From the NCBI RefSeq assembly GCF_008630935.1, contig NZ_CP043908.1, positions 992,001 through 1,056,000 of the forward strand: 64,000 nt of DNA, in the 5' to 3' direction. The stretch's first letter is position 1; each line of letters starts with the position of its first letter. The translations under genes and the position numbers were made by a program. The notes beneath the pieces were generated by a model. That model was not told the DNA's origin, searched no databases, and saw only the letters and a list, made by a program, of their open reading frames with translations. Below, piece by piece: positions 4,918 to 61,957 of this stretch. The DNA comes from Thermodesulfobacterium sp. TA1 (GTDB taxonomy: Bacteria > Desulfobacterota > Thermodesulfobacteria > Thermodesulfobacteriales > Thermodesulfobacteriaceae).

Positions 4918-4946
4918 TTGCCTAGAATCTAATTTTAGATTATAAT
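4918..4946 (+). promoter_or_regulatory. Sigma-70-type promoter of lptA, near-leaderless
   Basis: A -35 box TTGCCT (4918-4923), 17-base spacer and consensus -10 TATAAT (4941-4946). The lptA ATG lies only 10 bases after the -10 box and no Shine-Dalgarno sequence precedes it, so the expected transcript begins about four bases before the start codon. Confidence 0.7.
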
Positions 4947-4956
4947 TTTTAAATAT

Positions 4957-5439
4957 ATGAAAAAAACGAACTTAATAGGCATACTTTTAAAGGGTTTATT
5001 AATTTTCTTCTTTTTTGGAATAGAATTCCAGTCCTTAGGATTGGCTTCTGAAATTAACATAGTAGCCAACAAGATGGAGGTTATGGAAAGTGAAGGAATA
5101 GCGGTTTTTACCGGTAAAGTCCAGGCTACCCGAGGAGATATGCAGGTTTTTTGCGATAAACTTTATGTGTACTATACTACCCAAGAAGAGAAAAAGAACA
5201 TAACCAAAGTGGTGGCTTTAGGAAAAGTGGTGATTTATAAAGGGAAATGGAAAGCCTATGCAGAGAAAGCGGTTTATTATAAAGACCAAGAAAAATTAGT
5301 TTTAGAAGATAACCCTAAGGTCTGGAATGAAAAAAATTTGGTTGAGGGAGATATCGTAGTTCTTTACTTTAACGAAGACAGAAGTGAGGTTCTATCCAAA
5401 AACGAAGGCAGGGTAAGGGCTCGTTTTTATCTTAAATAA
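4957..5439 (+). CDS. lptA: LPS transport periplasmic protein LptA (OstA-like)
   Basis: LptA forms the periplasmic bridge carrying lipopolysaccharide to the outer membrane. The 160-residue protein has a lysine start and a hydrophobic signal segment (about 9-30), then the OstA/beta-jellyroll pattern: IVANKMEVMESEGIAVFTGKV, TRGDMQVFCDKLYVYY and a repeating strand rhythm to the C-terminus. Length is close to the family (about 170-190). It is followed 24 bases later by lptB, its export ATPase partner, and rpoN, the classical lptA-lptB-rpoN order. It supports a Gram-negative envelope with LPS. The start is the ATG behind the promoter at 4918-4946; no ribosome site is visible, consistent with leaderless translation. 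Confidence 0.9.
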   Translation: MKKTNLIGILLKGLLIFFFFGIEFQSLGLASEINIVANKMEVMESEGIAVFTGKVQATRGDMQVFCDKLYVYYTTQEEKKNITKVVALGKVVIYKGKWKAYAEKAVYYKDQEKLVLEDNPKVWNEKNLVEGDIVVLYFNEDRSEVLSKNEGRVRARFYLK

Positions 5440-5463
5440 AACTTTTTACTTATCAATTTTATT

Positions 5464-6180
5464 ATGCTAAAAACTAAGGATTTAAAAAAATTCTTTAAGA
5501 AAAAAGAGGTAGTACGTGGAGTTACTGTGGAGGTAAAAAGAGGAGAGGTAGTAGGTTTACTTGGCCCAAACGGAGCAGGAAAAACTACCTCTTTTTACAT
5601 GATAGCAGGTTTTCTTAAACCTGATTCAGGTGCGATTTTCCTTTTTGATAAGGATATAACCGATTATGATGTTTCTGAAAGGGCCAAACATGGAATTATT
5701 TATCTTCCTCAAGAAAGTTCTGTTTTTAGAAAACTTACGGTATACGAAAATTTTAAAGTGGTGGTAGAGCGTTTAGAAGTTAAACAAAAGGAGCTGTTAG
5801 AGAAGCTTGATTTTTATGTAGACCTTTTTAGCTTAAGAGAGGTACTTAATCAAAAAGCTTATACCCTTTCTGGTGGACAAAAGAGAAAAGTAGAGATAGT
5901 AAGGGCACTTTTAGTAGAACCTTCTTTTATCTTACTTGATGAGCCCTTTGCAGGAATTGACCCTATCGGTATTGACCAGTTAAAAACCATTTTTAAAACC
6001 TTAAAAGAAAGAAACATCGGCCTTTTAATATCAGACCACAACGTAAGAGATACCTTAAAAATCTGTGATAGAGCCTATGTTATAGCTGATGGTCAAATCA
6101 TAGGCGCAGGTACTCCTCAGCAAATATTAGAAAGCGAAATCGTTAAGGAAAAATATTTAGGAGAAAGGTTTAACATTTAA
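5464..6180 (+). CDS. lptB: LPS export ABC transporter ATPase LptB
   Basis: LptB is the cytoplasmic ATPase of the LptB2FGC complex that extracts LPS from the inner membrane. The 238-residue single ABC domain has Walker A GPNGAGKT (34-41), the Q-loop LPQESSVFRKL typical of LptB, signature LSGGQKRK, Walker B FILLDEPFAGIDP and the H-loop ISDHNVRDTL, which also matches LptB rather than general ABC ATPases. It sits between lptA and rpoN with a two-base gap to the latter, so the three are one transcription unit. The membrane partners LptF, LptG and LptC are not in this window. Confidence 0.95.
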   Translation: MLKTKDLKKFFKKKEVVRGVTVEVKRGEVVGLLGPNGAGKTTSFYMIAGFLKPDSGAIFLFDKDITDYDVSERAKHGIIYLPQESSVFRKLTVYENFKVVVERLEVKQKELLEKLDFYVDLFSLREVLNQKAYTLSGGQKRKVEIVRALLVEPSFILLDEPFAGIDPIGIDQLKTIFKTLKERNIGLLISDHNVRDTLKICDRAYVIADGQIIGAGTPQQILESEIVKEKYLGERFNI

Positions 6181-6182
6181 AA

Positions 6183-7595: not shown

Positions 7596-7600
7596 TTGAT

Positions 7601-9349: not shown

Positions 9350-9364
9350 TAAAGGGGGGAATTT

Positions 9365-10728: not shown

Positions 10729-10758
10729 GAGATTTCCTCTATAATTTTACAAAAATTA

Positions 10759-10832: not shown

Positions 10833-10875
10833 TTTATCTTTTTAAATATTATATCAGATTTTAAGCCACAAGACA

Positions 10876-12807: not shown

Positions 12808-12863
12808 TCCATATCAACCTCCTTCGAAAAATTAAATTATAAAAATTTTTTAAACCTATTATA

Positions 12864-12887: not shown

Positions 12888-12978
12888 TCAAAATTTTAAA
12901 AATCAACCCTTGGTCCTATATCAACTAAAGGTAGAAATTTAGAATGTCCTTTGGATAATCTTTTCTTTACCTTGGGGT

Positions 12979-12996: not shown

Positions 12997-13025
12997 TTGC
13001 TTTATCTTTTAGGCTGTGGTATAGT
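12997..13025 (+). promoter_or_regulatory. Leaderless promoter of the FAD oxidoreductase gene
   Basis: A -35 TTGCTT (12997-13002), 17-base spacer, and -10 TATAGT (13020-13025). The ATG at 13033 is seven bases after the -10 box and there is no ribosome site, so transcription should start at the start codon. Confidence 0.65.
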
Positions 13026-13032
13026 TTAAAAT

Positions 13033-14415
13033 ATGAGGTCATTAAAATATGATGTAGTTATAGTTGGTGCTGGACCAGCGGGGATTTTTACAGCCTTAGA
13101 ACTTTTAAAAAATAAAAATCTTAAAGTTCTTATCATAGAAAAAGGGAAAGATATCAGAAAAAGGGAGTGTCCTAATCTTAAAATAAGCAAATGTGCAAAA
13201 TGTATCCCTTGTAACATCATAAGCGGATGGGGAGGGGCTGGAGCTTTTAGTGACGGAAAGCTTAATCTTTCTAAAGAAATAGGAGGTTTTTTAAGCGAAT
13301 ATATAGACCCTAAAACACTTTCTGATTTTATAGAATATGTAGACCAAATTTACCTAAGCTTTGGTGCCCCTGAGGTTCTTTATGCCCCTGATGAAGCAAC
13401 TTTAAAAAAAATTACTGCTGAAGCTGCTAAAAACGGTCTTCTTTTTATTCCTTCTAAAATCAGACATATAGGCACCGAGAAATGTAAAGAAGTATTAACC
13501 AACCTTCAAAATTATTTAGAAAAGAAAGTTGACCTTCTTTTTGAAACAGAGGTTGAAGAAATCTTGGTTAGTAAAAACAAGGTAAAAGGGGTTAAGTTAA
13601 AAGACGGAAGACAAATTTTAGCCTCTTTTGTGGTAATAGCACCTGGTAGGTCTGGCAATGAATGGGTTCAGAAAGAATGTAAAAGGCTTAAACTTTCTAC
13701 AAGCATCAACCCTGTGGATATAGGAGTTAGGGTTGAGGTCCCAGCTGCGGTGATGGAAGATCTTACCTCCAAGATATATGAACCTAAATTTATCTATTTT
13801 TCCCAAACCTTTGACGATAAAGTTAGGACTTTTTGTGTTAATCCTTATGGTGAGGTAGTTACGGAAAACATAGACGGTATATGGACGGTAAACGGACATA
13901 GTTATGCTACTCAAAAAACTGAAAACACCAACTTTGCCATCCTTTGTAGCACCTATTTTACCGAACCCTTTAAAGAACCGGTTTTATATGGAAAAAACAT
14001 TGCTAAATTAGCCAATTTCTTGGGAAACGGAGTTTTAGTACAACGGTTAGGAGATATTAAAAGAGGTAGAAGGTCAAACGAAAAAAGAATCGCTAGGAAC
14101 TTAGTCCAACCAACCTTAAAAACTGCCACCCCAGGGGACCTAAGTTTTGTCCTTCCTTATAGGTATTTAGTAAATATTTTAGAGATGTTAGATGCCCTTG
14201 ACAGGGTAATTCCAGGGGTAGGATCTCCTTATACTTTACTTTATGGGGTAGAAGTGAAATTTTACAGTCTAAGGATAAAACTAACCTCTAACTTAGAAAC
14301 AGAGGTTAAAAATCTTTTTGCTGCCGGCGACGGCGCAGGTATTACCAGAGGGTTAATCCAGGCTTCAGTTTCAGGGGTAATTGTAGCCCGGGAAATCTTA
14401 AGACGTTTTTCTTAA
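13033..14415 (+). CDS. FAD-dependent dehydrogenase (COG2509-like)
   Basis: A 460-residue flavoprotein. The N-terminus has the Rossmann motif VVIVGAGPAGIFTALEL (about 8-24) and an acidic end of strand 2 (IIEKG). A cysteine-containing stretch CPNLKISKCAKCIPCN (about 46-61) may bind a metal or cluster, or be redox active. The C-terminus has the second FAD motif LFAAGDGAGITRGLIQA. This pattern matches the group annotated as uncharacterised FAD or NAD-utilising dehydrogenases; the substrate is unknown. The gene stands alone between the divergent chemoreceptor and dnaN, with its own leaderless-type promoter. The four closely spaced cysteines are worth noting. Confidence 0.8.
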   Translation: MRSLKYDVVIVGAGPAGIFTALELLKNKNLKVLIIEKGKDIRKRECPNLKISKCAKCIPCNIISGWGGAGAFSDGKLNLSKEIGGFLSEYIDPKTLSDFIEYVDQIYLSFGAPEVLYAPDEATLKKITAEAAKNGLLFIPSKIRHIGTEKCKEVLTNLQNYLEKKVDLLFETEVEEILVSKNKVKGVKLKDGRQILASFVVIAPGRSGNEWVQKECKRLKLSTSINPVDIGVRVEVPAAVMEDLTSKIYEPKFIYFSQTFDDKVRTFCVNPYGEVVTENIDGIWTVNGHSYATQKTENTNFAILCSTYFTEPFKEPVLYGKNIAKLANFLGNGVLVQRLGDIKRGRRSNEKRIARNLVQPTLKTATPGDLSFVLPYRYLVNILEMLDALDRVIPGVGSPYTLLYGVEVKFYSLRIKLTSNLETEVKNLFAAGDGAGITRGLIQASVSGVIVAREILRRFS

Positions 14416-23772: not shown

Positions 23773-23787
23773 CGTTAAAAACCCCAA

Positions 23788-32628: not shown

Positions 32629-34251
32629 CTAAATCATCTTATTTTTTAAGATTTCTTCGCAAAATTTTTCTGGATTTTTAAAAGCTTCTGGAGTTATAAC
32701 TACGTGGTTTATACCTAAAACATCTCTTAAATAAACGAGTTCATCTTTTAAACGAGACATTATCTTGTCACAAAGGCTAAAAACTCCAACCTCTTTTTTT
32801 ATAACTCTTTCGATAATAAGGTCTATAGCTTCTTCAGAAAATAAAATCCTTAATTTATACCTATTTTCAAAAAACTTTTCATAGTTCTTAATTTGCTGCC
32901 AAACATAAAAAAGCCTTTCCCAAACCTTTATAGGCTCTATAGCCCAACTTAAGTAAAAACTAAAAAGTAAATTTACCCTTTTTGGGGTTAAATCAAAAGA
33001 TTTATCAACCCAAAAATCATTCTTTGAATTTAAATAATCTTTAAACCGCCCTTCTTCTTCCAAAAGGGCAGTCTTAAAGTTAACCATCCAACGTTCGTTT
33101 TTAGGAGAGGATAACATAGCTTGAAGGATTCCCTCAGGGTCTTTTACCAACTCTTCGGTTACCCCTAAATATTTTAAACCTTTAGAGGATAACACCCTTT
33201 CATAAGGGATTAAAACCCTTTCTAAAACCATAGCCAGGGCCCTTGCTCCGGTGTTTTCTTGAGAGGCAAGCCGTGCAATTTCTTTCAGAGCTCCGTTAGT
33301 AAAAGCTAAGGTTATTCCATAGACATTAAAATCCTTTTTTTTATTTAAAACTATAGGGTTATTAGGATTAGCCAAGATTTCAAAAAGGTCTTCTTCAGAA
33401 AGAGGATCAAAAACCACGATTACCGGAAACCTTCCTACAAACTCTCTTTCAAAACCATAGTTTACTAAGTCTTCAGGCGAAACAAACTTTAGGTAATTAA
33501 TCTTTTGGTCTATTTTTTCCTCTAAGTCAGAAAGAAAACCCATTTTCTGTTTTCTTAATCTCTTTTTGATAATTTCCTCTAAACCTTGAAAAGCCCCGCT
33601 TGCTACAAAAAGCACATGCTTAGTGTTTAAAACTAACTTTTTTTTACGGTTTTTTTCAAAAAAATCTTTATGGTTAAAACTTTGCCCTACCTCTGGGGGC
33701 AATTTTATTTCTACGGTAGTTTCTTCTAAAGGTTTTAACAAGGCCCTTTGTACCCCTGTCCGAGAAACATCAGGTCCTATGTTTTCTCCGGTTGAGGCAA
33801 TTTTGTCTATCTCGTCTAAAAATATCATTCCATAATGAGCTTTCTCTAAGTCTCCTTCAGCCTCCCAATAAAGTTCTCTTATCAAGTCTTCGATATCTCC
33901 TCCTACATAACCAGTCTCACTAAACTTTGTAGCGTCTCCTTTTACAAAAGGCACCCCTATTTTTTTAGCTATCAGTTTCATCACATAGGTCTTACCAACT
34001 CCTGTAGGACCTATGATAAGAAGGTTGTTTTTGACAAAATCAAACTCCTCGTTTCTTTTTAAAACATAATGTTTAATCTTTTGAAAATGGGTGCAAATTT
34101 TGGTAGAAATAACAGCCTTAGCCTCTTTTTGTCCTACTACATAGTCATTTAAAAAACTTTCAAGTTCAAGGGGTTTAAGGTCAAACTCATAGATGGAAGA
34201 GAATCTCTCAGAAGATAATTTTTCCAATTTCAATTTAGAACTTTTAATCAT
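32629..34251 (-). CDS. ClpX-like AAA+ unfoldase with C-terminal extension
   Basis: A 540-residue AAA+ protein closest to ClpX/HslU. It lacks the ClpX N-terminal zinc domain. It has Walker A GPTGVGKT (81-88), pore loop GYVG (114-117), Walker B FLDEID (144-149), box VII EFVGRFPVIV (270-279) and sensor 2 NTGARALAMVLERVL. At the place of the ClpP-docking IGF loop is MGF (237-239), so partnership with ClpP is plausible. Residues from about 375 onward form an extra helical region of some 165 residues with no motif I recognise. It has a leaderless-type promoter (TATAGT seven bases before ATG) and is followed four bases later by a degenerate receiver. Confidence 0.8.
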   Translation of the reverse strand: MIKSSKLKLEKLSSERFSSIYEFDLKPLELESFLNDYVVGQKEAKAVISTKICTHFQKIKHYVLKRNEEFDFVKNNLLIIGPTGVGKTYVMKLIAKKIGVPFVKGDATKFSETGYVGGDIEDLIRELYWEAEGDLEKAHYGMIFLDEIDKIASTGENIGPDVSRTGVQRALLKPLEETTVEIKLPPEVGQSFNHKDFFEKNRKKKLVLNTKHVLFVASGAFQGLEEIIKKRLRKQKMGFLSDLEEKIDQKINYLKFVSPEDLVNYGFEREFVGRFPVIVVFDPLSEEDLFEILANPNNPIVLNKKKDFNVYGITLAFTNGALKEIARLASQENTGARALAMVLERVLIPYERVLSSKGLKYLGVTEELVKDPEGILQAMLSSPKNERWMVNFKTALLEEEGRFKDYLNSKNDFWVDKSFDLTPKRVNLLFSFYLSWAIEPIKVWERLFYVWQQIKNYEKFFENRYKLRILFSEEAIDLIIERVIKKEVGVFSLCDKIMSRLKDELVYLRDVLGINHVVITPEAFKNPEKFCEEILKNKMI

Positions 34252-34258
34252 ACTTAAA

Positions 34259-34264
34259 ACTATA
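34259..34264 (-). promoter_or_regulatory. -10 box of the ClpX-like gene, leaderless layout
   Basis: TATAGT on the minus strand, seven bases before the ATG at 34251, with no ribosome site and no clear -35. The same hexamer and spacing are found before the gene at 13033. Confidence 0.5.
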
Positions 34265-34293
34265 ATATATGCCTTTTTTTTAAAATGTAAACC

Positions 34294-39195: not shown

Positions 39196-40287
39196 TTAAC
39201 CAGGCATTTCGGTAAAGTCTAAAATCTCTTTATTTTGCACATAAGGAATAAACCTGCTCTTATCTACCGCCTTGATAAAGGCCTCCTCAGGGCTTATCCA
39301 TTTGTTATTAAGATACTCCATGATGCAGTCGTCAAGAGACATCATACCATATTTCTTACCCATCTGTATCATCGAAGGTATTTGATGTATCTTGTTTTCT
39401 CTTATCAAATTTCTGATAGCAGGGGTAGCTATCATGATTTCCATAGCAACTATCCTACCAGGTCTGTCTATTCTTTTAAACATAGTTTGAGAAACAACCG
39501 CTCTTAATGCTTCTGATAAAGAAACCCTTATTTGGTCCCTTTCTTCTGGTGGAAAGGCATCTACAATTCTGCTTACCGTTTGGGCTGCACTGATGGTATG
39601 AAGGGTGGCAAACACTAAATGTCCGGTTAAAGCCGCCTCAAGGGCTAAAGAAATAGTCTCTAAATCTCTCATTTCTCCTATCATGATGATGTCAGGGTCT
39701 TCTCTCAAAGCAGCCCTAAGAGCATTGGCAAAGCTCTTAGTGTGGGTACCAAGTTCTCTTTGGTTTATCAAACAATTTTTCGGCTCGTGCACAAACTCAA
39801 TAGGGTCTTCTATGGTAAGAATATAGTCATAACGCATCCTGTTGGCATAATCTATGATAGCTGCAAGGGTGGTAGATTTACCTGAACCTGTAGGACCGGT
39901 AACTAAAATCAACCCTCTAGGTAAAAGAGCTAAACGATTAAGGATTGAAGGAAGACCTAATTCTTCTACCGTCTTAATCTTATTAGGGATAAGCCTAAAG
40001 GCTGCAGCTACACCTCTTCTTTGACGATAATAGTTAACCCTAAACCTTGCTAAGCCAGGAAATTCATATCCCCAGTCTACCTCTCCTTCTTCTTCAAATT
40101 TTTTGATGACCTCTTCCGGAGCAATTTCATAAAGCATTTCTCTAAGTTCTTCATCTTCTAAGACCTTATACTTTACCCTCTGAAGGTCCCCATGAACCCT
40201 TAGAAGAGGGGGATTTCCTGCAGAAAGATGCAGGTCTGAGGCTTGAGTATCTACCATCAATTTGAAAAAGGCGTCTAACTTAGCCAT
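39196..40287 (-). CDS. pilT: Twitching motility ATPase PilT
   Basis: PilT depolymerises type IV pili. The 363-residue hexameric ATPase has the N-terminal motif ASDLHLSAGNPP, Walker A GPTGSGKST (about 130-138), the Asp box TIEDPIEFVH, the IMIGEMRDLETISLAL segment and His box LVFATLHT. The C-terminal AIRNLIRENK and KYGMMSLDDCI are typical of PilT retraction ATPases. It is the first gene of the run pilT-pilT2-unknown-galU-priA and has a leaderless-type promoter just upstream. Confidence 0.95.
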   Translation of the reverse strand: MAKLDAFFKLMVDTQASDLHLSAGNPPLLRVHGDLQRVKYKVLEDEELREMLYEIAPEEVIKKFEEEGEVDWGYEFPGLARFRVNYYRQRRGVAAAFRLIPNKIKTVEELGLPSILNRLALLPRGLILVTGPTGSGKSTTLAAIIDYANRMRYDYILTIEDPIEFVHEPKNCLINQRELGTHTKSFANALRAALREDPDIIMIGEMRDLETISLALEAALTGHLVFATLHTISAAQTVSRIVDAFPPEERDQIRVSLSEALRAVVSQTMFKRIDRPGRIVAMEIMIATPAIRNLIRENKIHQIPSMIQMGKKYGMMSLDDCIMEYLNNKWISPEEAFIKAVDKSRFIPYVQNKEILDFTEMPG

Positions 40288-40295
40288 TGTGTATA

Positions 40296-40324
40296 ATTAT
40301 TATAAAAATTTTCTAAAAAGTCAA
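40296..40324 (-). promoter_or_regulatory. Leaderless promoter of pilT
   Basis: On the minus strand: -35 TTGACT (40319-40324), 17-base spacer, -10 AATAAT (40296-40301), then eight bases to the ATG at 40287. No ribosome site. Confidence 0.6.
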
Positions 40325-42595: not shown

Positions 42596-43612
42596 ATGAA
42601 AATAGCTATTTGTCTTAGTGGTGGTGTAGACAGTTCTTTTGCAGCCTATCTTTTAAAAGAACAAGGTTTCTCTTTAGTAGGGCTTACGTTTAAACTTTTT
42701 GAGAACCAAGAAGAGATAGAAAAAGCGAAGATGATCGCTGAAAAACTTGAGATACCTCACCATATTATAGACCTTTCTCACGAATTTCAAGCTCAAATCA
42801 TCTCCTATTTTGTAAAAACCTATCAAGAAGGGAAAACCCCAAACCCTTGTGCTTTATGTAACCGAAAAATAAAGTTTGGTAAGGTGCTTGAATGGGCCTT
42901 AAAAACTTTAAAGGTAGAAAAGTTAGCCACCGGACATTACGTAGGCTTAGAAGCATACCAAGGAGAAGTCCTGTTAAAAAAAGCAAAAGACCACAAAAAA
43001 GACCAATCTTACTTTTTGTCCTTGATAACTAAAGAGGCTTTGCCTTTTTTAACCTTTCCTTTAAATGGCTATCTAAAAGAAGATATCAAAAACCTGGCTA
43101 AAAAAATCTTTAACCTTGAAACTTCTAAAGAATCCCAAGATGTATGTTTTTTAAAAGGTAAATCTATAAAGGAATTTTTATCACTTTTTTTAAACCCTCA
43201 AAAAGGTCCGATAGTTTATAAAGACAGGGTAGTAGGTCAACATGAAGGGATATTTTTCTATACCATAGGCCAAAGAAAAGGGCTTAGAATTCCTTTAGGG
43301 AAACCTCTTTACATCATCCGTTTAGAGGCCAAGACCAACACCGTTTTTCTTGGAGAAAAAGAGGACCTTGCAGCCAAAGGGGTAGTATTAGAAAACCTAA
43401 ACCTCCACCTTCCTATAAACCGATGGACTTCTCCTGAAGCTCAGATAAGATACCGTGCCCCTTTGGTAAAGGTTAAAGATGTGGTGCAAAAAGAAGAAAA
43501 AACCGAGGTTTATTTTAAAGAACCTGTGTTTGGGGTCACCCCAGGACAGGTTTGCGCCTTTTATGAGAAAGATTTTTTGTTAGGGGGTGGGATCATCGTA
43601 GACAAACTTTAA
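42596..43612 (+). CDS. mnmA: tRNA-specific 2-thiouridylase MnmA
   Basis: MnmA puts sulfur on U34 of tRNA-Lys, Glu and Gln. The 338-residue protein has the PP-loop motif LSGGVDSSFAA (7-17), the catalytic Cys88 in PNPCALCNRKIKFG, the second catalytic Cys184 in QDVCFLKGK, and GQRKGLRIPLGKPLYI. Length is slightly short of the usual 360. It works with MnmE/MnmG on the same base; mnmG is encoded at 48.4-50.3 kb. It lies divergent from ycaO with a 67-base AT-rich spacer. Confidence 0.95.
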   Translation: MKIAICLSGGVDSSFAAYLLKEQGFSLVGLTFKLFENQEEIEKAKMIAEKLEIPHHIIDLSHEFQAQIISYFVKTYQEGKTPNPCALCNRKIKFGKVLEWALKTLKVEKLATGHYVGLEAYQGEVLLKKAKDHKKDQSYFLSLITKEALPFLTFPLNGYLKEDIKNLAKKIFNLETSKESQDVCFLKGKSIKEFLSLFLNPQKGPIVYKDRVVGQHEGIFFYTIGQRKGLRIPLGKPLYIIRLEAKTNTVFLGEKEDLAAKGVVLENLNLHLPINRWTSPEAQIRYRAPLVKVKDVVQKEEKTEVYFKEPVFGVTPGQVCAFYEKDFLLGGGIIVDKL

Positions 43613-43626
43613 GTTTAAGCTATAAT
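43599..43626 (+). promoter_or_regulatory. Leaderless promoter of the UvrD-like gene inside mnmA
   Basis: -35 TAGACA (43599-43604), 16-base spacer, -10 TATAAT (43621-43626), then eight bases to the ATG at 43635. No ribosome site. The -35 box overlaps the mnmA 3' end. Confidence 0.6.
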
Positions 43627-43634
43627 CAGAGCCT

Positions 43635-45137
43635 ATGGAGCTCAGCCTAACCCAGGAACAACAAGAGGTCTTAAATACCTTTCAAGATACTCTTGTAATA
43701 GCCGGCCCCGGAACTGGTAAAACCTACACCTTGGTAGCTAAAGTTAAGCACCTTATAGAAAAGGATTACGTTTCTCCGGAAAAAATCTTAGTTTTAACCT
43801 ATTCCCTTAAAACCTCAAAGGAGCTTAAACAAAGATTGATTAAGCATGGCTTAAAACATGTAAAAGTAGATACCTTTCACGGCTATGCCTATGATTTGTG
43901 GTGCCAACACCATCAAAAACCTCCTAAGCTGATTACCGAACAAGAAAAAAAAGAAATCTTAAAAAAACTTTTTGGAAAAACTAAAAACCCTCTAAAGCTA
44001 CCTAACCATAAACTTAGTTTTTTTGAATACCTAAAAAAGAACCAGCTTTTAGACTTTGAGCTTTTACTTTATGAAGCTTTATCCCTCTCTAATATAAACT
44101 TCGCAGGTTATCATGTCATAATCGATGAGTTTCAAGACCTCTCAGAAGACATCCTAAAATTTTTGACCCTCTTTAACGATGCAACCTTTACGTTGTTTGG
44201 AGACCCCAACCAATCTATCTATGGATTTAGAGGGGCTAATCTTAAAAATCTGAAAGCTTTTTGGGAAAACTTTAGACCTAACCTTAAAATCCTTGCTCTT
44301 TCCCAAAGCTTTAGATGTCCTGAAGAAATCCTCAAACATGCTGAAAACTTTAAAAGCTCTCCGTGGGCAAAAATAACCTATACCAGTGTTAAAAAAGGTG
44401 GTAAGGTAGAAGGGATGTTTTTTGAAAAGACCTTTCAAGAAAAAGAGGTTTTAACCGATTTAGTAAAAAAACTTTTAGGAGGACTCCAATTAGAACAACA
44501 AACCCAAGAAGGACTTCCTCCCAAGGAAATCTTCGTGCTTGCCAGACTAAAAGAGGTCTTTCAACCTTTAAAAGAGACGTTTATTAAAGCCGGTATCCCG
44601 GTTAACTTAGTAGAAGAAGAAGCAAAAACCGCTTACGAAACCTTACAAGAATTTATCTCTGAGGTTCAAACCTCGGCTTTTTCTGTAGAAGACTTGATAA
44701 AAAAAGCCCATCCTAAGATTAAAACTTACTCAGAAAACCTTTGGGAGCTTTCAGACCAAAATAAAGAAAGATTTTTAGGCTATCTTCTTAGCACTCACTA
44801 CTCAGACCTTATAGAGATAGACCAAGAAGGGGTTAATTTTCTTTCTATCCATGCCTCAAAAGGACTTGAGGCTGAAGTAGTCATTTTAGTAGGAGTAGAA
44901 CAAGGACTTATTCCCCTTACCCTTTTTCAAGATACAGACGAGGAAGAAGAAAAAAGACTAATCTATGTCGCTATAACCCGAACTAAAAGAGAATTTTACT
45001 TTTCTGCGGTAAAAGAAAGAAAGGTTTATCAATTTTGTTTAAACTCTGGATTATCTCCTTTATTTAAAGGTATGCCCTTAAAAACCTTTAAACCTAAACC
45101 TCCTAAACCGAAGCAATCAAGCCTTTTTAGTCTCTAA
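43635..45137 (+). CDS. UvrD/Rep-family DNA helicase, compact
   Basis: A superfamily 1 helicase of 500 residues, shorter than UvrD/Rep (about 670-720). Motifs in order: Q motif LTQEQQEVLN, Walker A GPGTGKT (24-30), motif Ia VLTYSLKTSKELKQRL, motif II VIIDEFQDLS, motif III FGDPNQSIYGFRGAN, motif IV near LALSQSFRCPEEILKHAENF, motif V FLSIHASKGLEAEVVIL and motif VI RLIYVAITRTKREFYF. The insert domains 1B and 2B are reduced. It could act in repair or restart. It converges on rpoD with an 11-base overlap. Confidence 0.9.
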   Translation: MELSLTQEQQEVLNTFQDTLVIAGPGTGKTYTLVAKVKHLIEKDYVSPEKILVLTYSLKTSKELKQRLIKHGLKHVKVDTFHGYAYDLWCQHHQKPPKLITEQEKKEILKKLFGKTKNPLKLPNHKLSFFEYLKKNQLLDFELLLYEALSLSNINFAGYHVIIDEFQDLSEDILKFLTLFNDATFTLFGDPNQSIYGFRGANLKNLKAFWENFRPNLKILALSQSFRCPEEILKHAENFKSSPWAKITYTSVKKGGKVEGMFFEKTFQEKEVLTDLVKKLLGGLQLEQQTQEGLPPKEIFVLARLKEVFQPLKETFIKAGIPVNLVEEEAKTAYETLQEFISEVQTSAFSVEDLIKKAHPKIKTYSENLWELSDQNKERFLGYLLSTHYSDLIEIDQEGVNFLSIHASKGLEAEVVILVGVEQGLIPLTLFQDTDEEEEKRLIYVAITRTKREFYFSAVKERKVYQFCLNSGLSPLFKGMPLKTFKPKPPKPKQSSLFSL

Positions 45138-50275: not shown

Positions 50276-50434
50276 AACAACCTACCTCAGCTTGATATAT
50301 CCTTTTTTATTTATCCCAAACTTTTAATTATTATACCACATCAAACTTTCTCTCAAATCCCTGACCTCTTAACAATTTCTTGTATAATCCCGGTAGTGTC
50401 TAATTAATTGTGTAAAGACTTGAAGGAAAGGGAT

Positions 50435-50489
50435 GGTAGCTTCCCCTCCTTTCTGATAGGTTTGGGTATTAAGCATTGGGAAAGCTACC
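50435..50489 (+). repeat. Inverted repeat in front of the transposase start
   Basis: GGTAGCTTCCC (50435-50445) pairs with GGGAAAGCTACC (50478-50489), just before the GTG start at 50490. It may form a leader hairpin limiting transposase expression from external transcripts. Confidence 0.5.
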
Positions 50490-51227: not shown

Positions 51228-51353
51228 TAAGATTAAATTTGGGAACTACCATACCCTTTCTAATAAAATTTTTACACAATAAAAGAAACACCATGCTTGC
51301 TGTCCCGGGTTATCTCTTTCTATTTTTTAACAAAATGGTAAAATAAAAAAACT

Positions 51354-52268
51354 GTGAATAAAGCTTTTTTTTATCTTGGAATAACCATTCTTTTTTTTAG
51401 CTCCTACGAAGTAGTAGGAAGAACCCTTACAGGTATCGTAAACCCCTTTCAGGTTATTTTCTTAAGGTTTCTAATTGGGGGAATTTTTCTTCTTCCCTTT
51501 GCCCTAATAACCCTTAGAAAAAGAGCCTTAAACCTTAGCCTTAACGACCTATTCTCACTTTTTCTTTTAAGTTTGATTAATGTGGTTATTAGCATGTGTC
51601 TTTTACAGATAGGCATCAATCAGACCAAAGCCAGTTTGGCAGCTGTAGTCTTTAGTTCAAACCCTCTTTTTGTAGTTCTTTCTGCTTACTTCTTTTTAAA
51701 AGAACCCTTAACTTTCCACAAAGTTTTAGGATTAGCCATCGGTCTTATAGGGCTCTTTCTTACGTTTTATAAAGATTTAAACATAGACCCTTCTTACACC
51801 TATGGGATAATAGCCTTGATTTTTTCAGCCCTAACCTATGGCATTTACACCGCCTTTGCACAAAAGGTTACTCAAAAGATAGATAACTTAGTGATGAATT
51901 CCCTTTCTTTTCTCATAGGAAGTCTACTTTTGCTACCGATTCTTTTAATCAACCAACAACCTATTTTTTCCCTTCCTGAAAAAGCCTGGATACCTATCCT
52001 TTATCTTGGAGTTTTTGTAACCGGGGTAGCCTATTATACCTATTTTAAAGGACTTAGTCTAACTAATGCAGGTAGTGGTTCTATGATTTTTTTTGTCAAA
52101 CCGGTTTTAGCAAGCTTTTTAGCCTGGGTTTTTCTTTCTGAAAAAATAACTTCCCATTTAATTTTGGGAGGAATTACCATACTTATAGGTATATTCTTGG
52201 CTCAAAAGGAAAATCAAAAAAGCTTGAGTCTCGACCCCAAAAAGCTAAAATACTTTTTTAGGGGATAA
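51354..52268 (+). CDS. EamA/DMT-family transporter
   Basis: A 304-residue inner-membrane protein with ten predicted membrane segments in two EamA repeats (ITILFFSSYEVVGRTLTGI..., and ALIFSALTYGIYTAFAQKV...). The family moves metabolites such as amino acids; substrate unknown. It starts at GTG, with TAAAAT (51339-51344) nine bases before it and no ribosome site, again a near-leaderless layout. It ends three bases before the rluB-like gene. It begins 62 bases after the IS remnant. Confidence 0.88.
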   Translation: MNKAFFYLGITILFFSSYEVVGRTLTGIVNPFQVIFLRFLIGGIFLLPFALITLRKRALNLSLNDLFSLFLLSLINVVISMCLLQIGINQTKASLAAVVFSSNPLFVVLSAYFFLKEPLTFHKVLGLAIGLIGLFLTFYKDLNIDPSYTYGIIALIFSALTYGIYTAFAQKVTQKIDNLVMNSLSFLIGSLLLLPILLINQQPIFSLPEKAWIPILYLGVFVTGVAYYTYFKGLSLTNAGSGSMIFFVKPVLASFLAWVFLSEKITSHLILGGITILIGIFLAQKENQKSLSLDPKKLKYFFRG

Positions 52269-54098: not shown

Positions 54099-54101
54099 AT
54101 G

Positions 54102-54449: not shown

Positions 54450-54518
54450 TTTAGCACCTATCTTATCTTTAACAAAAATATTAACACAGATCCCTCTTTT
54501 AACAACAATCTTTTAGGT

Positions 54519-54524
54519 TAAAAT
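54519..54524 (+). promoter_or_regulatory. -10-like box of the ttuA gene, leaderless layout
   Basis: TAAAAT, seven bases before the ATG at 54532, with no ribosome site. No good -35 was found, so this is tentative and rests on the recurring spacing. Confidence 0.4.
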
Positions 54525-54531
54525 TAACAGC

Positions 54532-55842
54532 ATGGAGATAAAATATTATAAATGCGGCGGAGAAACCTTTGAATTAAACCTTAAACCCCTTCCGTTTAAA
54601 TGCAAAAGATGTAAAGAAAAAGAGGCTTTGGTAGAAATTCCTTCCCAGGGTATCAAGGTTTGTCCTGACTGCTTTAACCAGTTTTTTGAAAACCGCTTAA
54701 AAAACACTATAGAAAAATATAAAATGTTTCGTAAAGCTAAAAAAATAGGAGTTTTTGTTTCAGGAGGAAAAGACAGTGCTGCTCTTTTGTTTGGTTTAAA
54801 AAAAATCTTTCCTGACTTATCCCTTAAAGCTATCTATCTTAACTTAGGCATAAAATACTATTCAGAACTTGCAGAAGAAACGGTTAAAACCCTCTGCCAA
54901 GACATAGACGTTCCCCTTTATGTCTACAACTTACCCCAAGAAGAAGGATATTGTATAGATGAGTTTGTGCACACGATGTTTAAAAATAAAATATGCTCTG
55001 TATGTGGGGTTATAAAGCGTTATCTTTTTTCAAAAATTGCCAAAAAATTAGAAATAGATGTCATCGCCACAGGGCATCACCTTGACGATACCGTTTCTAC
55101 CATGTTAACCCTTTTTTTTCAAGGAGATTTTGAAGGAATAGTAAAGCTTGGTCCTGTGTTGCCTCCTATCTATCTTGGCCAAGCAACCAAGGTTAAACCC
55201 CTTTATCATACCCCTGAAAAAGAAATTTTTTACTACGTAGCACTAAACAAAATACCTATAGAAAGGTGCGGTTGTCCTCATGGAGAAATTACCCCAAGTA
55301 AAAAGAATAAAAAAATCTTAGAAATCTTTGAGCAAGAAAATAGACAGTTTAAGTATCAACTCCTTTCTGTGTTTGTGAAAAAACTCATCCCCCTTTTAAA
55401 AACCCATCCAGATTACCGATTTTCTCTTCCTGAGGTTAAAAATTGTATTAAATGTGGGGAGATCACCACTTCAGCAGATGAAGTATGTAGCCGCTGTAAA
55501 AGGGTTTCTCTGTTAGAAAAAATACCAGACAAAACCTTAGAAGTAACTCCAGAGGAGTTTAAAAAGTTTATACAAACCCAGCCGAGGGAAAGTTGGGTAG
55601 TCTTTGATCTTAGGGAAAAAGAAGATTTTGAAAAAGGGGCTTTTGAAGGGGCTTTATGGATTGACCCTAAGATAGTAGATAGCTCTTCTCGAAAACTTGC
55701 TAAACTTTTTAAGGCCTACAGAGATAAAACCCTGTTTTTCTATTGTTATACTGGCCGACTAAGTTATCTTTTAACCTTAAAACTTAGGAAAATAGGGATA
55801 AAAGCCTTTAACATAGGTTCTCCTGAAAAACTAATAAGTTAA
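54532..55842 (+). CDS. ttuA: TtuA-type tRNA 2-thiolation enzyme fused to rhodanese
   Basis: TtuA thiolates U54 of tRNA in thermophiles. The 436-residue protein has an N-terminal zinc ribbon (Cys24, Cys27, Cys44, Cys47), PP-loop SGGKDS (77-82), Fe-S ligand cysteines in KICSVCGV (154, 157) and RCGCPHG (246, 248), GHHLDDTVST, and a second zinc ribbon (Cys305, 308, 319, 322). Unlike ordinary TtuA of about 320 residues, it continues into a rhodanese domain (about 338-436) with VVFDLREKEDFEKGAFEGA and a catalytic-type Cys405 in YCYTGRLS. The fusion would bring a persulfide donor to the thiolase. It has a leaderless-type start and ends at a strong bidirectional terminator. Confidence 0.9.
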   Translation: MEIKYYKCGGETFELNLKPLPFKCKRCKEKEALVEIPSQGIKVCPDCFNQFFENRLKNTIEKYKMFRKAKKIGVFVSGGKDSAALLFGLKKIFPDLSLKAIYLNLGIKYYSELAEETVKTLCQDIDVPLYVYNLPQEEGYCIDEFVHTMFKNKICSVCGVIKRYLFSKIAKKLEIDVIATGHHLDDTVSTMLTLFFQGDFEGIVKLGPVLPPIYLGQATKVKPLYHTPEKEIFYYVALNKIPIERCGCPHGEITPSKKNKKILEIFEQENRQFKYQLLSVFVKKLIPLLKTHPDYRFSLPEVKNCIKCGEITTSADEVCSRCKRVSLLEKIPDKTLEVTPEEFKKFIQTQPRESWVVFDLREKEDFEKGAFEGALWIDPKIVDSSSRKLAKLFKAYRDKTLFFYCYTGRLSYLLTLKLRKIGIKAFNIGSPEKLIS

Positions 55843-55889
55843 AAAAGCCAAGGGTGAGGATTAAAGTTCCATCAAACCCTGGCTTTTTT
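55843..55889. terminator. Bidirectional hairpin terminator between ttuA and the rubredoxin gene
   Basis: AAAAAGCCAAGGG (with one bulged A) pairs with CCCTGGCTTTTTT across a short loop. The A run and T run flank the stem, so it can end both the plus-strand ttuA transcript and the minus-strand rubredoxin transcript. Confidence 0.85.
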
Positions 55890-55903
55890 AAAAATTTTAA
55901 CTA

Positions 55904-56107
55904 TTAAGAACTTTCCTTTCCTATTTCATCCATAGGCCTAAAAGCTTTTTTAGTTGCCCCACAAACCGGACATTTCCAATCATCAGGTAATTTCTCAAAA
56001 GGTGTACCTGGAGGTATTTTACCTTTTCTATCCCCTTTGCTTGGAACATAAATATAACCACAGTTTGTCGTTGAACAAATCCAAGCTCCTTCAAAATCTT
56101 TTGGCAT
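55904..56107 (-). CDS. Rubredoxin with a CX4C first cysteine pair
   Basis: A small one-iron electron carrier of 67 residues. The body [27 protein letters not shown] is textbook rubredoxin, with Cys46 and Cys49 as the second pair. The first pair is Cys11-STTN-Cys16, four residues between cysteines where most rubredoxins have two (CxxCG). I recall a CX4C rubredoxin from Desulfovibrio, so this is a rare but known variant. AGGAGG lies six bases before the ATG. It stands alone, with a hairpin in its leader region and an IS derivative further upstream. Confidence 0.93.
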
Positions 56108-56152
56108 CTTCTGCCTCCTAAAACATCTCTTATTTAGAAGAATAAATCAAAA

Positions 56153-56171
56153 AATAGTTTTTACAACTATT
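56153..56171. terminator. A/T-rich hairpin upstream of the rubredoxin gene
   Basis: AATAGTT-TTTAC-AACTATT, perfect seven-base-pair stem with A and T runs on both sides. On the minus strand it lies 46 bases before the rubredoxin ATG and could act as a weak terminator or attenuator. Few G-C pairs make it weak. Confidence 0.4.
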
Positions 56172-56206
56172 AAAAAATTTTTAAATTTAAATAAATTTTT
56201 GTCATA

Positions 56207-56425
56207 GTGCCTCTTTTATTGTATAAAGACTCTTTTGAGGAGGTATGGTAGTCCCCAGATTACACTTTATTAAATCCTCAAGTATAAATACATGCTAAAT
56301 TTCTTATGAAACAATTTTTAAAATCTCTTCTAAGGAATGAAAAAGTAATAATCTCTATTTGTTTTTCTTAAAGAAGCTACCATGCCTTTTATTATTCTTC
56401 AAGCTCTACGCAATTAATAAGGCAC
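56207..56425 (-). mobile_element. 219-base deletion derivative of the IS256-family element
   Basis: The right end, read inverted, begins GTGCCTTATTAATTGCGTAG, like the left end at 50396. The left end GTGCCTCTTTTATTGTATAA and GGTATGGTAGTCCCC match the inverted right end near 51291, so it is in minus orientation. Inside, fragments LEEILK and GAGGATTTAATAA match the middle and the 3' end of the transposase. It has both ends but no coding capacity, like a MITE. The flanks (TTGTCATA left, TACCGATT right) show no target duplication. Confidence 0.8.
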
Positions 56426-56537
56426 TACCGATTATTAGTCTTGATTTTTTAATCAAATCTGATATGCTAAACAGTTAAACATATTAAATTAAAAAGCGTA
56501 ATACAGAAGCTACTGATGGCACCTAAATAAGTTGGTC

Positions 56538-57317: not shown

Positions 57318-57331
57318 ACGAGGCCTTTGTT

Positions 57332-57910: not shown

Positions 57911-57916
57911 ATAAAC

Positions 57917-58918: not shown

Positions 58919-60297
58919 AATTCCTCTAATTCTTCTTTTATTCCTAATTCTTTGATTTTTTTCTGAAGATAAGCCCTTTCAATACCTATTTCTCTTGCAG
59001 TATGAGAAATGTTGCCCCCATGTTCTAAAAGTTTTCTCCTAATAAATTCCTTCTCAAAAAGTTGTTTGGCGGACCTAAGATCTTTTTCCTTAAACCAAGG
59101 CTGGTCTTGAGAGAAAACATAGGTCTTATCTTTTAAAAGATGCTTAAAATCCTCAGGTAGGTCCTCATATCCGATTTCTTTTTTGTTAGAAAGAATGACT
59201 AACCTTTCTATAAAATTTTTCAACTCTCTCACATTGCCAGGCCAGTGATATTCCATTAAAACTGAAAGGGCATCTGGTTTTAGATGTTTCCTACCAGAGG
59301 CTGTTTTATAACTCATCTCTTCTAAAAATTCTTCTACCAAAACCGGTATGTCCTCTTTTCTTTCTCTTAGAGGCGGGATATAGATAGGGAAAGCATTAAG
59401 CCTATAAAACAAGTCTTCTCTAAACGAGCCTTTTTTTATGGCATCTCTTAAGTCTTTATTGGTTGCTGCTATAATCCTTACGTCTACTTCTATAGATCGG
59501 GTTCCACCTAACCTTTCAAATTTTTTTTCTTGTAAAACCCTTAACATCTTAGCTTGAGAAGCAAGGCTCATATCTCCTACTTCATCAAGAAACAGAGTGC
59601 CACGATTAGCCAACTCTAACTTTCCTGCTTTTGAAGTAAAAGCCCCAGTAAAAGCCCCTTTTTCATACCCAAAAAGCTCAGCCTCTATCAAGGTATCAGG
59701 AATGGCTGCACAGTTTACCTCTACAAAAGCCTCCTTAGCCCTATGCGAATAAAGATGAATAAGCTTAGCTACTACTTCTTTTCCTACCCCTGATTCACCT
59801 AAAATGAGGACGGTAGTATCAGTAGGGGCTACTTTATGAATAATGTCTCGTAAATTTTTAATGGCAGATGAAACCCCGGTTAATTTGACCTCGCCAAGCA
59901 ATTTTTCTCTTAGCCTTTTGTTTTCTTCCTCTAAAGAACTTACCTTTAAGGCATTTTCTAAGGTAACTATTATCCTTTCATAAGAAAGAGGTTTTTCTAT
60001 AAAATCGAAGGCTCCCATTTTAATAGCCTTTACTGCGGTTTCTATGGTCCCATGCCCAGAAATAACGATTACCGGTAAAAAAGGATACATCTTCCTGATG
60101 GTATCTAAGACCTCAAGGCCGTCTGCGTCTTTGAGCCAAAGGTCTAAAAAAACCGCATCTGGAGGTCTAAAGTTTATCTCCTTTAAAAAATCTTTAGCAT
60201 AAAGAAAGGTTTTTACACGATAGTTTTCGTCTCTAAGAATGTCTTCTAAAACTTCTAAAATTCCGATTTCATCATCAAGAACCCAAACTTCTTTCAT
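58915..60297 (-). CDS. Sigma-54-dependent response regulator (NtrC/AtoC type)
   Basis: A 460-residue activator. The receiver has phosphoacceptor Asp52 (FLDLWLKDADG) and Lys102 in EKPLSYER. The AAA+ domain has Walker A GESGVGKE (167-174), the sigma-54 contact loop GAFTGA (214-219), Walker B LFLDEVGD, and FREDLFYRLN. A Fis-type HTH ends it (ARE IGIERAYLQKKIKEL). All motifs are intact. No histidine kinase is adjacent, so its signal is unknown. I prefer the second ATG (60297), which lies seven bases after the -10 box; the first ATG is at 60300. The window's rpoN supplies its sigma factor. Confidence 0.94.
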   Translation of the reverse strand: MKEVWVLDDEIGILEVLEDILRDENYRVKTFLYAKDFLKEINFRPPDAVFLDLWLKDADGLEVLDTIRKMYPFLPVIVISGHGTIETAVKAIKMGAFDFIEKPLSYERIIVTLENALKVSSLEEENKRLREKLLGEVKLTGVSSAIKNLRDIIHKVAPTDTTVLILGESGVGKEVVAKLIHLYSHRAKEAFVEVNCAAIPDTLIEAELFGYEKGAFTGAFTSKAGKLELANRGTLFLDEVGDMSLASQAKMLRVLQEKKFERLGGTRSIEVDVRIIAATNKDLRDAIKKGSFREDLFYRLNAFPIYIPPLRERKEDIPVLVEEFLEEMSYKTASGRKHLKPDALSVLMEYHWPGNVRELKNFIERLVILSNKKEIGYEDLPEDFKHLLKDKTYVFSQDQPWFKEKDLRSAKQLFEKEFIRRKLLEHGGNISHTAREIGIERAYLQKKIKELGIKEELEEF

Positions 60298-60304
60298 CAT
60301 GTTA

Positions 60305-60334
60305 AAAATATGACCTTCTCTTTTAAAATGTCAA
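60305..60334 (-). promoter_or_regulatory. Leaderless promoter of the NtrC-type gene
   Basis: On the minus strand: perfect -35 TTGACA (60329-60334), 18-base spacer, -10 TATTTT (60305-60310), seven bases to the second ATG at 60297. No ribosome site. Confidence 0.65.
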
Positions 60335-60355
60335 GGATTAATTCCGAGGATTATT

Positions 60356-61132
60356 CTATCCTAAATAAGTATCCAGAGACATCATGATAAGAAAACCTAA
60401 ACCAAAACCTAAGGAAGAATAATCGGTATTGGCAGCTTTTTGAGCCTCAGGAAGTAACTCTTCTATGGTTACGAAAATCATCGCACCTGCAGCAAAACTT
60501 AAAGCATAAGGTAAAAAATAAGAAGAATAAGAAACTATACCAAAACCTACTAACGCAAAGATTGGTTCCACTATAGCTGAGAAAAAGCTTAAATAAAACG
60601 CCTTAAATTTAGACATTCCACTAAATTTAAGGGTCAACCCTAAGGCTAAGCCTTCAGGGATGTTTTGAATTCCTATTCCTAAGGCTAAATTTATGGCCTC
60701 TTTAAGCAAATATGTATCTTCATTTACACTACCAAAGGCAACTCCTATCGCCAATCCTTCGGGTATATTATGAAGGGTAATGGCTAAAAAAACTAACACG
60801 CTAACATTTAAAGAAACCTTAAACCCCTCGGTCTCTTCCTTAGAAGCAAAAAGATGTAAATGAGGTACAACTAAATCCAAAAGTCTTAAAAACAAAACAC
60901 CTAAAATAAAACCTATGCTTACAGAAACAAAAGGTGGAAAAACTGAAGCCTTAGCTATCTCTAAAGCTGGAACCAACAAAGACCAAAAGCTTGCTGCAAT
61001 CATTACCCCAGCTGAAAACCCTAAAGAAATAGAAAAAAATTTAGGGTTCGGTCGGTTAAACAAGAAAACTCCTAAACCACCCAACCCAGTAGTTAACCAA
61101 GTAAAAATGCCTGCTAAAAGGACGTTTATCAT
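60356..61132 (-). CDS. ZIP-family metal transporter
   Basis: A 258-residue membrane protein with eight hydrophobic segments. Family metal motifs are present: HNIPEGLAIGVAFG (about 122-135) and GIQNIPEGLALGLTL (about 152-166), with HLHLF in the variable loop. It likely takes up zinc or other divalent metals, like ZupT. It is 11 bases after the TtcA-like gene and 55 bases before the NtrC-type gene, so it may be read with the TtcA-like gene. Confidence 0.9.
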   Translation of the reverse strand: MINVLLAGIFTWLTTGLGGLGVFLFNRPNPKFFSISLGFSAGVMIAASFWSLLVPALEIAKASVFPPFVSVSIGFILGVLFLRLLDLVVPHLHLFASKEETEGFKVSLNVSVLVFLAITLHNIPEGLAIGVAFGSVNEDTYLLKEAINLALGIGIQNIPEGLALGLTLKFSGMSKFKAFYLSFFSAIVEPIFALVGFGIVSYSSYFLPYALSFAAGAMIFVTIEELLPEAQKAANTDYSSLGFGLGFLIMMSLDTYLG

Positions 61133-61143
61133 TTACTCTACAC

Positions 61144-61944
61144 TTATTCCTCAGGGTTGTTTTTATTGAAAAGGTTATTTTTATAAGTTGAAGCAGGCTT
61201 TTTAGGTAAATACTCAAACTTTGGGTTAAACATTGCGTTAAAGATGCTTTTTTTAATCCTTGGGTCTAAGAGATATACATTTTCTTTAAGCCAATTCTCT
61301 ATAAACTTACGTTTGGTTTGTTCAGAAAAAGGACAAGGGTTTTTTAAAACCTCCCAACCTTGGGACTTTACAAAACGAGAAATCATGTCTTTTTCTACAA
61401 AAACAAGAGGTCTTATTAGATAGAGATTTCCTTTAAACATTTCTTGCACCGGTAGAATGGTAGAAAGTTCTCCATGGTAAAAAAGGTTGATAAAAAAAGT
61501 TACCAAAAGGTCGTCTTTATGATGTCCAAAGGCTATCTTGTTAGCCTGCCAAGCCTCAGCCAGTTTAAAAAGATGTTTTCTTCTATGCCAAGAACAAACA
61601 AAACAAGGGGCTGTGGTCTTTTTTTCTGCAACCTCTAAAGCCTGCTTTCCACAATCGGTTTTTTCTACATAAAATTCCATATTAAGACTTTGGCAAAAAT
61701 TTCTAAGCCTCTCAACCCCCTTCTCATAAACCTCTTGATCACAGGGAAATCCCATGTCTAAATGTACCCCGATCAACCGATAATTAACCCTTAATTTTTT
61801 TCTCCACTCACTTAAAAAATAAGCCAGAGCAAGGCTATCTTCTCCTCCAGACATGGCCACAATAATAAAATCCTCTGCAGATAGCATTTGATATCCGAAA
61901 ATTGCCTTACCTACCAAACGTTTTATCTTATTATAAAGGCTCAT
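61144..61944 (-). CDS. TtcA-like tRNA 2-thiocytidine/thiolation enzyme
   Basis: A 266-residue PP-loop ATPase of the TtcA/TtuA group. It has the PP-loop variant SGGEDSLALAYFLS (32-45; Glu replaces the usual Lys), the Fe-S type CxxC in PCFVCSWHRRKHLFKLA, GHHKDDLLVTFFINLFYHGEL and NPCPFSEQTKR with the third cysteine. TtcA of E. coli makes 2-thiocytidine-32. The Lys to Glu change in SGGKDS is also seen in some family members. Target base is inferred. TATAAA lies seven bases before the ATG. It is followed by the ZIP gene. Confidence 0.85.
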   Translation of the reverse strand: MSLYNKIKRLVGKAIFGYQMLSAEDFIIVAMSGGEDSLALAYFLSEWRKKLRVNYRLIGVHLDMGFPCDQEVYEKGVERLRNFCQSLNMEFYVEKTDCGKQALEVAEKKTTAPCFVCSWHRRKHLFKLAEAWQANKIAFGHHKDDLLVTFFINLFYHGELSTILPVQEMFKGNLYLIRPLVFVEKDMISRFVKSQGWEVLKNPCPFSEQTKRKFIENWLKENVYLLDPRIKKSIFNAMFNPKFEYLPKKPASTYKNNLFNKNNPEE

Positions 61945-61951
61945 CTTGATA

Positions 61952-61957
61952 TTTATA
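61952..61957 (-). promoter_or_regulatory. -10-like box of the TtcA-like gene, leaderless layout
   Basis: TATAAA on the minus strand, seven bases before the ATG at 61944; no ribosome site and only a weak -35. It lies in the 16-base gap after the GlcD-type gene, so the gene may have both an operon and its own leaderless transcript. Confidence 0.4.

Follow-up and report, generated by a model that had tools for sequence, protein, structure and literature searches.

In a 64,000-nucleotide stretch of the genome of Thermodesulfobacterium sp. TA1 (NZ_CP043908.1, positions 992,001 to 1,056,000; hereafter the window), ordinary sigma-70-type promoters very probably abut the start codons of a set of genes and yield leaderless or nearly leaderless mRNAs with initiation at a 5'-AUG. 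For seven of the eight genes singled out in an initial annotation of the window, leaderless or near-leaderless transcripts are the best-supported reading, as predicted from promoter position and conservation. In the proposed mechanism, the -10 box of a sigma-70-type promoter ends approximately 6 to 12 bases ahead of the start codon; RNA polymerase, judging by this spacing, would begin with the A of the ATG or no more than a few bases earlier, and the resulting mRNA, having no room for a Shine-Dalgarno (SD) site, would be translated by direct recognition of its 5'-terminal AUG by ribosomes with initiator tRNA, by analogy with leaderless mRNAs elsewhere, which are read in this way (PMC10783764). 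Transcription is described as starting at a distance of 8 to 14 bases, counted from the second position of the -10 box (PMC3160421), so that the start would coincide with the A of the ATG when d, the number of bases from hexamer to start codon, is approximately 3 to 9. Sequence shows promoter anatomy and position, the lack of a good SD site, enrichment and conservation, together with the presence of normal SD genes and a normal anti-SD tail in the same genome.

A genome-wide count against shuffled sequence revealed a strong excess of start-adjacent promoters at SD-less genes that are first in their transcription unit. The host genome (G000) is a single contig of 1.83 Mb, sampled here over 864 kb (the window, with a GC content of 36%, plus 40 stretches of 20 kb) in which 797 genes were called, their starts being assigned by a simple coding-score caller that prefers ATG. 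Genes with a divergent neighbor at least 30 bases away or a same-strand neighbor at least 80 bases away were classed as first-in-unit (246), and 401 were operon-internal; 96 genes with intermediate gaps and 54 at stretch edges were dropped before the main count, and the 88 of 246 first-in-unit genes lacking an SD site served as the main test set. Of the eight annotated genes, five are not first-in-unit and another (54532) carries a 4-base SD match, so that other genes carry this test. A -10 box alone (score >=4) was detected at d 4-10 in 34/88 genes, as compared to 8.8 in dinucleotide shuffles (standard deviation 2.6, maximum 20 in 1000), to 7, 8, 10, and 9 matches in four windows farther upstream of the same 88 genes, and to 7/124 SD-less operon-internal genes. 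Paired -35 and -10 boxes ending 4 to 10 bases before the start were found in 31/88 genes at a joint-score cut-off of 6 (4.5 expected, maximum 11 in 200 shuffles), in 23/88 at the stricter cut-off of 8 (0.7 expected), and in 28/79 when window genes were removed (4.1 expected). Internal methionine codons, scored jointly as a control, gave 11/482 versus 14.1. With boxes picked without regard to their -35, the mean -35 score peaked sharply at spacers of 16 and 17 bases (-0.09 and -0.21) versus approximately -2.8 at other spacers; taking a -35 element at 16 to 18 bases as the proxy for a promoter, this peak argues that the boxes are promoters. When the -10 matrix columns were permuted, just 4 of 720 orders, identity included, gave a count as high as the one observed.

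The observed excess amounts to approximately 26 genes among the 88 SD-less first genes, the 246 first genes, and the 797 genes overall, giving an estimated frequency of approximately 11% of first genes and 3% of all genes, i.e., a real but minor mode. The earlier suggestion that leaderless translation is a normal second mode in this lineage is thus upheld as to a second mode, at a low frequency. The 16S anti-SD tail is normal (GGATCACCTCCTT, single copy found in the genome) rather than degenerate as in a loss of SD initiation, and SD matches of at least 5 bases precede 340/797 genes, consistent with leaderless initiation being second and minor. Escherichia coli K-12, passed through the same pipeline (150 kb), displayed no excess (1/39 versus 1.5; TANNNT in successive windows 4, 5, and 6). 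Among start-adjacent candidates, d is 6-9 in 43/53, and the start codon is ATG in 49/53 and GTG in 4, much as among SD genes (310/340 ATG), the caller favoring ATG. Candidates and SD genes differ slightly in codons 2 to 6 (G 0.162 versus 0.205, T 0.319 versus 0.274) and in 5' folding energy (-3.31 versus -3.64), small differences to which no test of significance was applied. No functional theme emerged from Pfam matches of 20 of 34 first-gene candidates lying outside the window: 4 had no family and 16 were scattered over glycosyltransferases, radical SAM proteins, transglycosylases, transporters, and others. Two pattern searches were not used, one a looser promoter-start pattern in the same genome (154 versus 80 in a backward control), the other a phylum-wide pattern (TTGACN, 15-17 bases, TANNAT, 5-8 bases, ATG; 297 genomes; 10 versus 4 in the backward control for this genome), the latter because many other genomes had more matches and many matches looked coding.

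All eight -10-like hexamers listed in the initial annotation, which had proposed them as start-adjacent signals without ribosome sites, lie at their reported positions and spacings, as do the two -35 boxes it emphasized (TTGACA for 60297, with an 18-base spacer, and TTGACT for 40287, with a 17-base spacer), and other window genes carry AGGAGG as it described (e.g., at 14478 and 24006). By a crude measure, a ribosome site is lacking at five of the eight, with a 4-base partial SD match at 60297 (taking the ATG at 60300 as start), 54532, and 61944. As promoters, two of the eight had to be revised: the -10 of 34251 had been misassigned, and 61944 has no -35 and little conservation. Across the window, 27 of 59 starts are SD-less, and hexamers before them exceed chance, modestly so in the loose form (<=2 mismatches to TATAAT, d 7-10), which was found at 16/27 starts versus 9.0 when the whole 60 bases were shuffled (standard deviation 2.4, maximum 16 in 300 shuffles) or 10.5 when the last 30 bases were (standard deviation 2.3, maximum 18). 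The strict form (<=1 mismatch) occurred at 6 of these starts versus 1.5 (maximum 5) or 1.9 (maximum 6). Another null, giving 16 versus 17.2, was discarded as unfair and replaced by this SD-less-only comparison, because shuffling destroyed SD sites and more shuffled starts were therefore counted as SD-less. The joint -35/-10 score identified 7/59 window starts versus 2.1 (standard deviation 1.4, maximum 6 in 500 shuffles), with 4, 0, and 5 in three control windows farther upstream. Among all 270 sampled SD-less genes, the loose hexamer was present at 112 versus 92.4 or 105 in shuffles and the strict hexamer at 39 versus 15.7 or 20.2.

For seven of the eight listed genes, some or most relatives retain a promoter next to the start, which is stronger evidence than the initial annotation had. 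When syntenic stretches from five relatives were scored uniformly (promoter score >=7 at d 5-14), 16/17 orthologs of five tested genes retained it (11/12 without the nearest relative, G028), as compared to 0/43 orthologs of genes with an SD of at least 5 bases and 5/42 orthologs of other SD-less genes, the seven accepted genes being classed by hand regardless of SD match and the test excluding genes with 4-base SD matches and orthologs with <45% identity, no aligned N terminus, or no nearby ATG. The SD gene dnaN keeps its -10 at d 28-45 in relatives. Six further genomes of the order, surveyed over 200 to 300 kb each with the joint cut-off and representing three families (the host's own included), gave counts above shuffles: 6/27 versus 1.5 in G028, 7/44 versus 2.0 in G065, 11/28 versus 1.2 in G100, 6/28 versus 0.5 in G289 (59% GC), 7/29 versus 1.3 in G180, and 7/30 versus 0.9 in G248. 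Samples from G155 (2/9 versus 0.5) and G318 (1/6 versus 0.4) were too small to inform, and the -10 alone was not clearly above shuffles in G028 (5 versus 2.7) and G065 (9 versus 5.1).

Four relatives carry the promoter followed by a leader of 31 to 39 bases, with an SD match of 5 to 6 bases in loci L034 and L142, 4 bases in L139, and none in L148. For the ClpX-like gene, genomes G314 and G316 keep the promoter at 34 and 39 bases from the ATG, with a 6-base and a 4-base SD match, respectively, and form a fully supported pair (100/100) among tree members that mostly have the short form; the simplest reading is that their common ancestor gained the leader once, on a tree that is midpoint-rooted only and weakly supported at several deep forks. 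Upstream of the ClpX-like open reading frame in L148 (relative G269), a promoter precedes an ATG whose frame stops four codons on; a similar stretch and then the real ATG come next, an arrangement that looks like a local duplication yielding a leader with a tiny upstream open reading frame. More tentative, and held at a little under even confidence, is the broader proposal that the fusion of promoter and start is old, gene specific, and switchable in Thermodesulfobacteria, particular genes having retained the adjacent promoter in different genera and individual lineages inserting a 30 to 40 base leader downstream of that promoter, which stays recognizable. One SD-less window gene (22039-23787, minus strand) is possibly another mode-switching gene; its orthologs carry promoters scoring 7.8-10 at d 9-13 in G065, G100, and G318 and score just 2.6 and 1.6 in G028 and G155.

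Several observations weigh against start-adjacent promoters giving leaderless mRNAs. The loose hexamer by itself is just modestly above chance; an earlier test without a split by SD was weak (TATAAT with one mismatch, 29 versus 19.3, standard deviation 4.2), TANNNT showed no excess across the full set of 140 first genes initially sampled (41 versus 38.2), and the split by SD was chosen after the weak unsplit result was known. The finding of 0/101 matches in SD genes is partly forced, because an SD takes up the positions in question. Gene starts depend on the simple caller, and a 5'-most start rule shrinks the excess to 23/96 versus 4.7; non-start ATGs just upstream also pass in 2/27 cases. Genes in the uniform ortholog test were picked after the ortholog upstreams had been viewed, 61944 was not included, and the lptA-like and TtuA-like genes had no ortholog in the stretches used. 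Among other genomes, G065 is weak, since 200 shuffles also reached 7, and G100 also gave 7/28 in the next window (d 12-18). Of the listed genes, 61944 fails (no -35, best promoter score 3.2), and the ClpX-like gene at 34251 would be preceded by a few leader bases instead of strictly none, as its conserved -10 lies at d=12. The Thermus plasmid pTT27, a GC-rich positive control from a species for which leaderless genes are reported (PMC12340547), gave 0/27 with the strict -10 matrix; with the looser TANNNT, 9 matches occurred at d 4-10 versus 1 at 12-18 and 4 at 20-26, so the pipeline detects leaderless genes where the box fits the matrix.

Of the alternatives, the one that survives best, at an unlikely level, is that the promoters are real but secondary, the main transcripts starting farther upstream and SD-less translation proceeding via S1 on A/U-rich leaders. 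The genome encodes an S1-repeat protein (5/9 S1-domain matches fall within one 578-amino-acid frame), 54/88 SD-less first genes have no nearby -10, and some candidates, such as 43635, follow another gene at a short distance, so that its promoter could serve them too; against this, for the tested genes it is the promoter next to the start that relatives conserve, and two of the four relatives whose promoter lies 31 to 39 bases away have a 5 to 6 base SD match. Less likely still, chance would account for the pattern through -10-like hexamers that AT-rich DNA yields near starts, consistent with the modest loose-hexamer excess in the window and among all SD-less genes, and 61944 looks like one such case. 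As a general account, chance is refuted by the -35 spacing peak and by ortholog conservation (it also fits poorly with the joint -35/-10 excess, which extends to the 59% GC relative G289); for single genes it may hold. That start codons were miscalled, with real starts downstream and the promoter making an ordinary leader, is highly improbable, for although starts were assigned by sequence only and lptA-like N termini are poorly conserved (8/20 loci not scorable), most alignments reach the first few residues at approximately 50-97% identity (ClpX-like, PilT, NtrX-like, UvrD-like, TtuA-like).

Taken singly, the listed genes and their orthologs show the following layouts (see table). None of the seven accepted genes has an SD except for the 4-base partial match at 60297 and 54532. 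Orthologs of the pilT-family gene in 9/9 scored Thermodesulfobacterium-group sequences keep TTGACT, a spacer of 16 to 18 bases, and a -10 at d 7-10 while the surroundings diverge; L034, from a metagenome-assembled genome labelled Caldimicrobium, has the promoter, a 31-base leader, and an SD, and the layout is missing in four remoter relatives (L035-L038). The window PilT shares 97% identity with its Thermodesulfobacterium hveragerdense counterpart and 83-87% with the next five records, three of which carry the label Thermodesulfobacterium, one Thermodesulfobacteriota, and one Caldimicrobium. Orthologs of the ClpX-like gene conserve TTTAC, 16-17 bases, and TATATT in 19/20 loci, with d 10-14 in 16/20, across two genera, and 32, 34, and 39 in three more; the TATAGT originally assigned as its -10 (34259-34264, d=7) was rejected, as relatives conserve TATATT at d=12 instead. 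The promoter was found at d 7-11 in 15/19 scorable NtrX-like orthologs (20 loci), at d 6-10 in 13/15 scorable TtuA-like orthologs (16 loci; scores 5.6-9.7), and at d 6-9 in 9/16 UvrD-like loci (scores 5.9-9.5), the UvrD-like gene itself beginning 22 bases after its upstream gene. Among lptA-like orthologs, it was at d 7-12 in 7/12 scorable loci (of 20, 7 were unaligned at the N terminus and 1 had no start), and orthologs of 13033 had it at d 7-8 in 5/10 loci and a 6-base SD match instead in 2/10, an eleventh locus spanning the C terminus only. The NtrX-like gene has a second ATG at 60300, with 4 bases counted from the box as compared with the 7 of the first in the table; close relatives G028, G204, and G311 have no ATG matching 60300, so the true start is probably 60297. 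The TtcA-like gene begins 16 bases after its upstream neighbor, and just 2/20 of its orthologs have their best promoter at d<=10 with a score of at least 6. Remote loci L338, L340, L341, and L343 carry, upstream of their TtcA-like genes, a TTGT- or TTGC-type box, 16-17 bases, and TATACC or TATATT at d=7 (scores 4.4-5.7). An EamA-type transporter gene is a weak extra candidate, with no ortholog in the relatives' stretches compared.

Table. Putative promoter elements and start codons of the listed window genes (positions in the window; d, bases from the -10 hexamer to the start codon)
Gene	Span	Strand	-35	Spacer	-10	d	Start	Remark
lptA-like	4918..4957	+	TTGCCT 4918-4923	17	TATAAT 4941-4946	10	ATG 4957	no SD
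FAD-dependent oxidoreductase-like	12997..13033	+	TTGCTT	17	TATAGT 13020-13025	7	ATG 13033	no SD
ClpX/HslU-like AAA+ ATPase	34251..34291	-	TTTACA 34286-34291	16	TATATT 34264-34269 (conserved)	12	ATG 34251	
pilT-family	40287..40324	-	TTGACT 40319-40324	17	AATAAT 40296-40301	8	ATG 40287	no SD
UvrD-like helicase	43599..43635	+	TAGACA 43599-43604	16	TATAAT 43621-43626	8	ATG 43635	
tRNA 2-thiolation-type (TtuA/NcsA-like)	54498..54532	+	TTTAAC 54498-54503 (weak)	15	TAAAAT 54519-54524	7	ATG 54532	
NtrX/NtrC-type regulator	60297..60334	-	TTGACA 60329-60334	18	TATTTT 60305-60310	7	ATG 60297	
TtcA-like	61944..61957	-			TATAAA	7	ATG 61944	rejected as leaderless promoter in this genome
EamA-type transporter	51317..51354	+	TTTCTA	16	TAAAAT 51339-51344	9	GTG 51354	weak extra candidate

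Elsewhere in the window, tRNA alone matched Rfam at the gathering threshold; two intervals, 50276-50715 and 55843-56531, contain no gene or just a short weak open reading frame and likewise have no Rfam match at that threshold. Near-identical 39-base stretches starting TTGACTTCTTGCTGAAAAA occur in at least six places of host contig 1 among the matches listed (111730, 452418, 547205, 1424703, 1727032, and 1746627), a pattern suggestive of a dispersed repeat or the end of a mobile element.

Leaderless genes are already known in many bacteria of other phyla. Zheng et al. (2011) describe leaderless genes with a TA-like signal in 207/953 bacterial genomes, including delta-Proteobacteria and Aquificae, the signal being closer to TATAAT in low-GC genomes (PMC3160421); the portion of that text available here does not name Thermodesulf-. 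Like those genes, the ones analyzed here have a TATAAT-like box in the last 20 bases and no SD, alongside SD genes in the same genome (PMC3160421). They differ in making up approximately 3% of genes, as compared to approximately 20% in Actinobacteria and 40% in Deinococcus-Thermus in that survey, and in having a prominent, properly spaced -35, unlike the description given there (PMC3160421). In Deinococcus-Thermus, a -10 a few bases before the open reading frame gives leaderless mRNA and a well-placed -35 strengthens a reporter (PMC12340547). The position of the -10 a few bases ahead of the start is shared with that group, whereas its experimentally supported leaderless genes carry TANNNT and make up approximately 30% of open reading frames (PMC12340547), a share not approached by the excess found here; in the present genome the box is of the TATAAT type and the genes a small minority, recognized by sequence alone. 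The coexistence of leaderless and SD starts within one genome resembles the mixed GeneMarkS-2 class, to which 21.6% of bacterial species are predicted to belong (summarized in PMC9581028). Mentions of Thermodesulfo- in the available portion of PMC10783764 concern anti-SD classes, and no earlier description of leaderless genes in the Thermodesulfobacterium group was found in a search of mainly open-licence literature, with most subscription papers outside it.

The predicted leaderless genes extend a known gene-start mode to a thermophilic group and provide named genes whose start annotation can use promoter position. Ortholog pairs with and without a leader (the ClpX-like gene of G314 and G316 versus its relatives; pilT of L034 versus Thermodesulfobacterium) make leader gain and loss testable, and, if the promoter-start fusion is indeed old and switchable, they would be natural before-and-after pairs in which the leaderless and leadered forms of one gene share one promoter.

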